Below are positions 35,103-35,261 of a stretch of DNA of 64,000 bases, piece after piece (within the stretch, counting starts at the first letter, position 1; each line of letters begins with the position of its first letter). The DNA is from Yaniella halotolerans DSM 15476 (GTDB taxonomy: Bacteria > Actinomycetota > Actinomycetes > Actinomycetales > Micrococcaceae). Position numbers and translations under genes: made by a program. The notes beneath the pieces are model-generated. The model was not told the DNA's origin. It did not search any database and was given only the letters and a program-made list of their open reading frames with translations. The stretch covers positions 248,001 to 312,000 of the forward strand of contig NZ_ATVQ01000002.1 of the NCBI RefSeq assembly GCF_000420805.1. The letters are read 5' to 3'.

Positions 35103-35227
35103 GTTTAGTCAGTCCTTTCCTTCGCAAACTTTGCGATAGGGATTCGTTTCCAGGTCACGGCATCCCGTGAGAGTTCATTGAGTTTTCATTTCATTGGCGG
35201 ATGCCAGCAGGTACGAAATGACCTGAG
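35103..35227 (-). promoter_or_regulatory. Structured 5' leader of rpf, candidate regulatory RNA
   Basis: Read on the minus strand, two nested long-range stems form almost at the predicted transcript start: CAGGTCA (35225-35219) with TGACCTG (35157-35151), and GGCATCC (35205-35199) with GGATGCC (35165-35159). A competing local hairpin TCACGG-gatg-CCGTGA (35170-35155) uses bases from both 3' strands, so the two folds exclude each other. A further 7-1-7 palindrome (TCGCAAA/TTTGCGA, 35122-35136) directly precedes the ribosome-binding site. Rpf genes in other actinobacteria can be under c-di-AMP (ydaO) riboswitches; the conserved ydaO core was not recognisable here. Bases are seen; the regulatory role is inference. 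Confidence 0.5.
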
Positions 35228-35233
35228 TTCGCC

Positions 35234-35261
35234 ACAATACATGTTCATGGTTCGTTATCAA
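35234..35261 (-). promoter_or_regulatory. Promoter of rpf
   Basis: On the minus strand: TTGATA (35261-35256), a 16-base spacer, TATTGT (35239-35234). The predicted start near 35227 puts the first stem of the leader at the very 5' end of the RNA. Confidence 0.6.

Follow-up and report, generated by a model that had tools for sequence, protein, structure and literature searches.

The leader of the rpf-like gene

Rpf enzymes rouse dormant actinobacteria and are able to lyse their own cell, and an RNA has been placed on the leader of the rpf gene in several lineages. The rpf-like gene of Yaniella halotolerans DSM 15476 raises the question of whether its 5′ leader is such an RNA and, if so, whether it belongs to a described class. 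The gene lies in a stretch of 64,000 nucleotides, the whole of which is referred to here as the window; the features discussed are listed in Table 1. Its product of 227 amino acids was found by domain search to contain a Transglycosylas domain (PF06737, E 2.2e-32) and a LysM domain (PF01476), and its N-terminus appears signal-like by eye. The NCBIfam Rpf model was matched with an E value of 5.3e-49 and 167 bits, which is below its curated cut-off of 180. An rpf gene was found in all nine Yaniella genomes examined (G000–G008), with GTG as the start codon in six of the nine species. The gene is flanked by secG-tpiA-pgk and tal-tkt, the names pgk and tpiA being taken from matches to bifunctional and TIM models, and is probably its own transcription unit because a terminator-like hairpin follows secG.

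Table 1. Features predicted at the rpf locus (positions are those of the window)
Feature	Position	Strand	Basis or remark
rpf-like gene	34419–35102	minus	Transglycosylas and LysM; TTG start
Shine-Dalgarno GGAAAGGA	35113–35120	minus	first GG inside P3
P3 hairpin CCTATCGCAA..TTGCGAAGG against ribosome site	35119–35140	minus	conservation and alignment fold
P1 3′ strand GTGACCTGG	35150–35158	minus	alignment fold and shuffle tests
Local competing hairpin TCACGG-GATG-CCGTGA	35155–35170	minus	window's species and three near ones only
P2 3′ strand GGATGCC	35159–35165	minus	shuffle tests
P2 5′ strand GGCATCC	35199–35205	minus	shuffle tests
P1 5′ strand TCAGGTCAT	35218–35226	minus	alignment fold and shuffle tests
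Predicted transcription start region	35226–35230	minus	inferred from −10 position; 0–4 nt before P1
Promoter TTGATA (35261–35256), 16-nt spacer, TATTGT (35239–35234)	35234–35261	minus	9/12 consensus positions
Upstream element GATTCACAGNNCATTAAAAGGT	35371–35392	minus	~110 bases upstream of −35 box
Terminator-like hairpin after secG	35509–35539	minus	consensus scan

The promoter claimed in the first-pass annotation of this DNA is located where it had been placed and is found in all nine Yaniella. Three sigma-70-like sites were found in the region 34300–35850, this promoter among them, against a shuffle mean of 0.5. The pattern TTTGATAACRA..TGTAKKGTGGC occurs a single time in the window and is present at all nine Yaniella loci. 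Further upstream, GATTCACAGNNCATT was found to be exact in seven of the eight Yaniella loci that extend far enough upstream of rpf, and the TTCACAG core of the upstream element also precedes rpf in some other genera (L010, L014, L015). At the −35 position an TTTGATAACG box is seen again before rpf in other Micrococcaceae genera (L010, L018, L019, L020), while in Rothia (L108) it lies upstream of rpf as the reverse complement. Its recurrence hints that this box may also be a regulator's site.

Structure and conservation of the leader

The same annotation had drawn two nested 7-bp stems in the leader and a palindrome against the ribosome-binding site. Both stems are present as P1, the core of which pairs CAGGTCA (35225–35219) with TGACCTG (35157–35151), and P2; the palindrome, TCGCAA..TTGCGA, is contained in P3, and a hairpin at the ribosome site occurs in all nine Yaniella. 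The 127-nt leader of the window folds with a z score of −2.1, with 4 of 200 shuffles being as good, and the other eight orthologous leaders range from −0.7 to −2.8. The minimum-energy fold holds P1, P2 and P3 together in five of the nine orthologues (L003, L006–L009), and P1 is absent from that of L002 and L004.

At all nine loci the stretch from the promoter to the end of an identical GCGAAGGAAAGGA measures 114–127 bases. Invariant columns of the alignment cluster in the 5′ end with P1, in P3 and in the ribosome site, with a few scattered others. RNAalifold arrived at P1 and P3 without being given them; its covariation term was only −0.37 kcal/mol. When P1, P2 and P3 were imposed on a MAFFT alignment of the leaders (A2), 88.9% of cells could pair, compared with 28.6–41.5% in a control in which the partners were slid by 1–3 columns. 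Changes on both sides were seen in 6 of 23 pairs (shuffled mean 3.1; reached by 18 of 500 shuffles), and the observed values of five measures on this alignment were reached by 6 to 20 of 500 shuffles. These counts come from nine Yaniella sequences, to which a search of further genome contigs added none; several are close relatives, and kinship among sequences inflates such counts.

Since the register of P2 shifts between species, column counts undersell this stem, and each sequence was therefore tested against its own dinucleotide shuffles. P1 exceeded its shuffles in eight of the nine orthologues (p 0.0005–0.012), the exception being L009 (0.16), in which two P1 pairs are broken. P2 gave p values of 0.0015–0.049 in seven of nine in the 30/15 setting, with 0.23 in L002, in which the stem is shortened, and 0.10 in L006. 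With one sequence taken per lineage (L001, L005, L007, L008), Fisher's p for P2 was 3e-5 to 1e-4 over three window settings, and 0.002–0.006 with weaker representatives (L002, L005, L006, L008); the windows for this test were picked after the stems had been seen, and L005 and L008 are from sister species. A P2 stem made of other letters is present in L005–L009 (weakly in L006). In P1, one UA pair is replaced by CG in L005 and L008. Six of the seven pairs of the lower P3 stem are invariant, whereas a U-to-C change in L008 disrupts the seventh; the next pair up is A-U in seven species and G-C in L005 and L008 (alignment by eye). The double changes in P1 and upper P3 may each represent one event, as both are found in these sister species.

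Alternative folds and access to the ribosome site

The leader had further been described as bistable because of a local hairpin competing for the 3′ strands of both stems. This hairpin is real in the window, where it shares strands with P1 and P2 and gives a fold of −35.2 kcal/mol against −32.0 for P1 with P2, so that it is preferred over P2 by about 3 kcal/mol. It is limited to four of the nine species (L001–L004) and is rarely formed in L003 (0.10), and conserved bistability is therefore unsupported. Two exclusive folds that are both conserved were not found for this hairpin; other alternatives were examined in part.

With regard to the Shine-Dalgarno sequence, its first GG is held in P3 and its AAA is mostly open in all nine leaders, whereas the GGA end is mostly open in five; in L004, L006, L007 and L008 it is paired in part or for the most part. 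Pairing of the Shine-Dalgarno or downstream stretch with the segment between P1 and P2, or with the P2 loop, did not exceed chance in a single one of the nine leaders. A hairpin beside the ribosome site was also seen in the rpf leader of the one genome of genus g17 (L018); this leader has no match to the model of the Yaniella leaders described below and folds no better than shuffles (z −0.84).

These observations bear on a first alternative, that the leader is a true ligand- or protein-binding switch of an unnamed class with two exclusive folds. The small energy difference between strand-sharing folds in the window is consistent with this, as is the minimum-energy fold of L004, which joins the 5′ strand of P1 to the end of the Shine-Dalgarno region, and other rpf leaders are switches or candidate switches (PMC6009663, PMC9960051). 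The restriction of the competing hairpin to four species speaks against it, and so does the nine-leader alignment, from which a large invariant unpaired core, as of an aptamer, is absent. A switch of this kind is considered doubtful, although it is the best of the alternatives.

Relation to the lysM-Actino RNA

The Rfam search, covering the whole window at gathering thresholds and 651 bases (34950–35600) at E ≤ 10, gave no relevant match to the leader, and the ydaO core is not recognizable in it, as had been remarked earlier. The only two matches, Termite-leu and Collinsella-1, did not lie in the leader and scored far under their cut-offs. From the nine Yaniella leaders a covariance model (R1) was built and run on 395 Micrococcaceae genomes with the stricter filters of Infernal. 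It matched at rpf in all nine Yaniella genomes, with 100–138 bits, and at no rpf gene in the remaining 386 genomes. Three weak matches elsewhere (L151–L153; 16–20 bits, E 0.02–0.28 per genome) have no rpf within the ~3.1 kb around them.

In many related genera a different RNA occupies this position. The lysM-Actino model (RF03090) was matched at E ≤ 0.1 in 58 of 120 genomes, representing 19 of 32 genera, with matches above the curated cut-off in 2 of the 120. All 30 loci taken from this search show similarity to Rpf, the best piece of one (L049) being the LysM end only. The rpf leaders of many Micrococcaceae genera (L036, L011, L012, L014 and 22 others) have a short lysM-Actino form of ~130 nt, mostly below the Rfam cut-off, with a GGGA-capped hairpin and a closing stem that adjoins the Shine-Dalgarno GGAG. 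An alignment of 26 short-form leaders (A5) was made by choosing those with the motif GGGGAC[GA]G..GAGCG, which left out the diverged L021 and L079 and the long-form loci; the letters of the GGGA-capped hairpin are fixed in this alignment because the leaders were picked by that motif. Six helices were supported, with 92.7% of cells pairing and 18 of 32 pairs changed on both sides; on every measure the observed value exceeded all 500 shuffles. One helix, which is missing from the RF03090 structure line, crosses two others and has double changes in 7 of its 10 pairs, so that it is probably a pseudoknot. A candidate crossing helix pair was seen in all four Microbacterium and Agrococcus rpf leaders examined (L066, L081, L082, L068), where GCGAGGGC/GCCCTCGC-like and TCCGCCC/GGGCGGA-like strands form it in other letters, hinting that the lysM-Actino class may span families.

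This RNA was not recognized in Yaniella. There was no RF03090 match in the window at gathering (153.8 bits), nor at E ≤ 10 in the region given above, nor in the six Yaniella genomes listed in the search of 120. The short Micrococcaceae form was also made into a covariance model (R2); with filters off and E ≤ 5, none of the nine Yaniella leaders was overlapped by a match. Over 59 relatives R2 matched 17. Sixteen of these are among the 50 non-Yaniella genomes, each at a locus with similarity to Rpf; the weak match in a Yaniella genome (G007, L170, E 0.099) lies away from rpf with no rpf nearby. The best crossing stem of the Yaniella leaders was not above shuffles in any of the nine (p 0.34–0.98). 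Read by eye, all nine also lack a GGGGA stretch and hence the GGGA-capped hairpin.

A transketolase tree, made with the 30 best of the 59 genomes, placed Yaniella with G009, G011, G022 and G024 with full support, the order inside this clade being left open. R2 matched in 9 of the 21 non-Yaniella rows of this tree; within the clade it matched at rpf in G011 (9e-6) and weakly in G009 (E 0.003), with G022 and G024 lacking a match. The lysM-Actino RNA may have been lost, been replaced or become unrecognizable in Yaniella, loss or replacement being the simpler reading although not the sole one. A second alternative, namely that the Yaniella leader is a diverged RF03090 member with its recognizable core lost, would agree with the same gene, the same place, the same kind of promoter and the matches still found in the two clade mates. 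It is rated unlikely in view of the silence of both models and of a crossing helix at chance level in all nine leaders.

Weaker alternatives and the question of c-di-AMP

The modest single-sequence fold energies and the close kinship of several sequences might suggest that only the promoter and ribosome site of the leader are conserved and that its structure is due to chance, but P2 pairing survives letter changes and P1 is above its shuffles in all leaders except L009, making this very improbable. Slightly less probable again is a transcription attenuator like the Mycobacterium tuberculosis rpfB switch: this rpf leader too is long and structured, but a consensus scan found no terminator-like site between the promoter and the rpf start codon (35234–35102).

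The first-pass annotation had also drawn a parallel with the c-di-AMP (ydaO) riboswitches on rpf genes. RF00379 was found in none of the nine Yaniella genomes but in 37 of the other 50 that were searched, and the DAC domain (PF02457) in none against 38 of 50; both searches may miss weak matches. Among the Yaniella genomes, completeness is rated at 100% for G000, and G005 consists of one contig. RF00379 and DAC mostly co-occur in the 59 genomes, exceptions being G034, with RF00379 and no DAC match, and G047 and G053, with DAC and no RF00379. Neither was found in G000–G008, G009, G011, G020, G022 and G024, which suggests an apparent loss of c-di-AMP signaling in Yaniella and some other genera. 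Within the reach of these searches the parallel thus fails for Yaniella: some outgroup genomes do have rpf-like genes with RF00379 just upstream (G058:C13, G049:C440, G050:C153, G052:C1), but with no RF00379 match in the window and neither RF00379 nor DAC found in any Yaniella genome, a c-di-AMP riboswitch or variant of the type on Streptomyces rpfA can be practically dismissed. It is also unlikely that lysM-Actino needs DAC-made c-di-AMP, as G009 and G011 are without both and yet have lysM-Actino-like leaders.

Proposed role of the leader

The reading favored here, with reasonable though not high confidence, is that of a Yaniella-specific structured 5′ leader of rpf which would act post-transcriptionally on mRNA stability or translation. 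Judged by its conservation, the leader is real, a lineage-specific variant among rpf leader RNAs, and it lies at the place of the lysM-Actino RNA of many related genera. The transcript would begin within a few bases of P1, and the long-range P1 with the adjoining P2 would make up a single extended hairpin spanning the first ~80 nt, which as a 5′-terminal hairpin would guard the rpf mRNA. P3, abutting the Shine-Dalgarno sequence and holding its first bases, would set ribosome access. The leader would in this way restrain a wall hydrolase that is potentially lethal.

One genus appears here to have exchanged its rpf leader RNA for another. That a regulatory RNA class confined to Yaniella replaced lysM-Actino and gates Rpf synthesis on a wall or dormancy signal, without visible c-di-AMP signaling, is a more speculative extension and is proposed only tentatively. 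An exchange with no sign of c-di-AMP signaling represents a small natural experiment on what is required of the leader, and the Yaniella case speaks against a response of the lysM-Actino class to c-di-AMP. A search of one literature collection found no paper on a Yaniella resuscitation-promoting factor, nor on the lysM-Actino motif.

Comparison with known leader RNAs

The RF00379 riboswitch is found on rpf genes of other actinobacteria, and the rpfA of Streptomyces is cited as having an RNA-regulated leader in PMC9960051, whereas the Yaniella leader has no match to RF00379 and no DAC domain was found in its genus. The M. tuberculosis rpfB RNA switch, as described in PMC6009663, is a lineage-restricted leader on a TTG-start rpf gene which controls transcription and precedes rpfB-ksgA-ispE. 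The Yaniella leader is likewise lineage-restricted and on a TTG-start rpf gene; it differs in having no predicted terminator and secG and tal as neighbors, the two being likened by description. By place, the nearest described relative is lysM-Actino and not ydaO. Although the Yaniella leader has neither an RF03090 or R2 match nor a crossing helix above chance, both are structured, both occur in Micrococcaceae, and both lie directly upstream of a gene for an Rpf/LysM wall enzyme.
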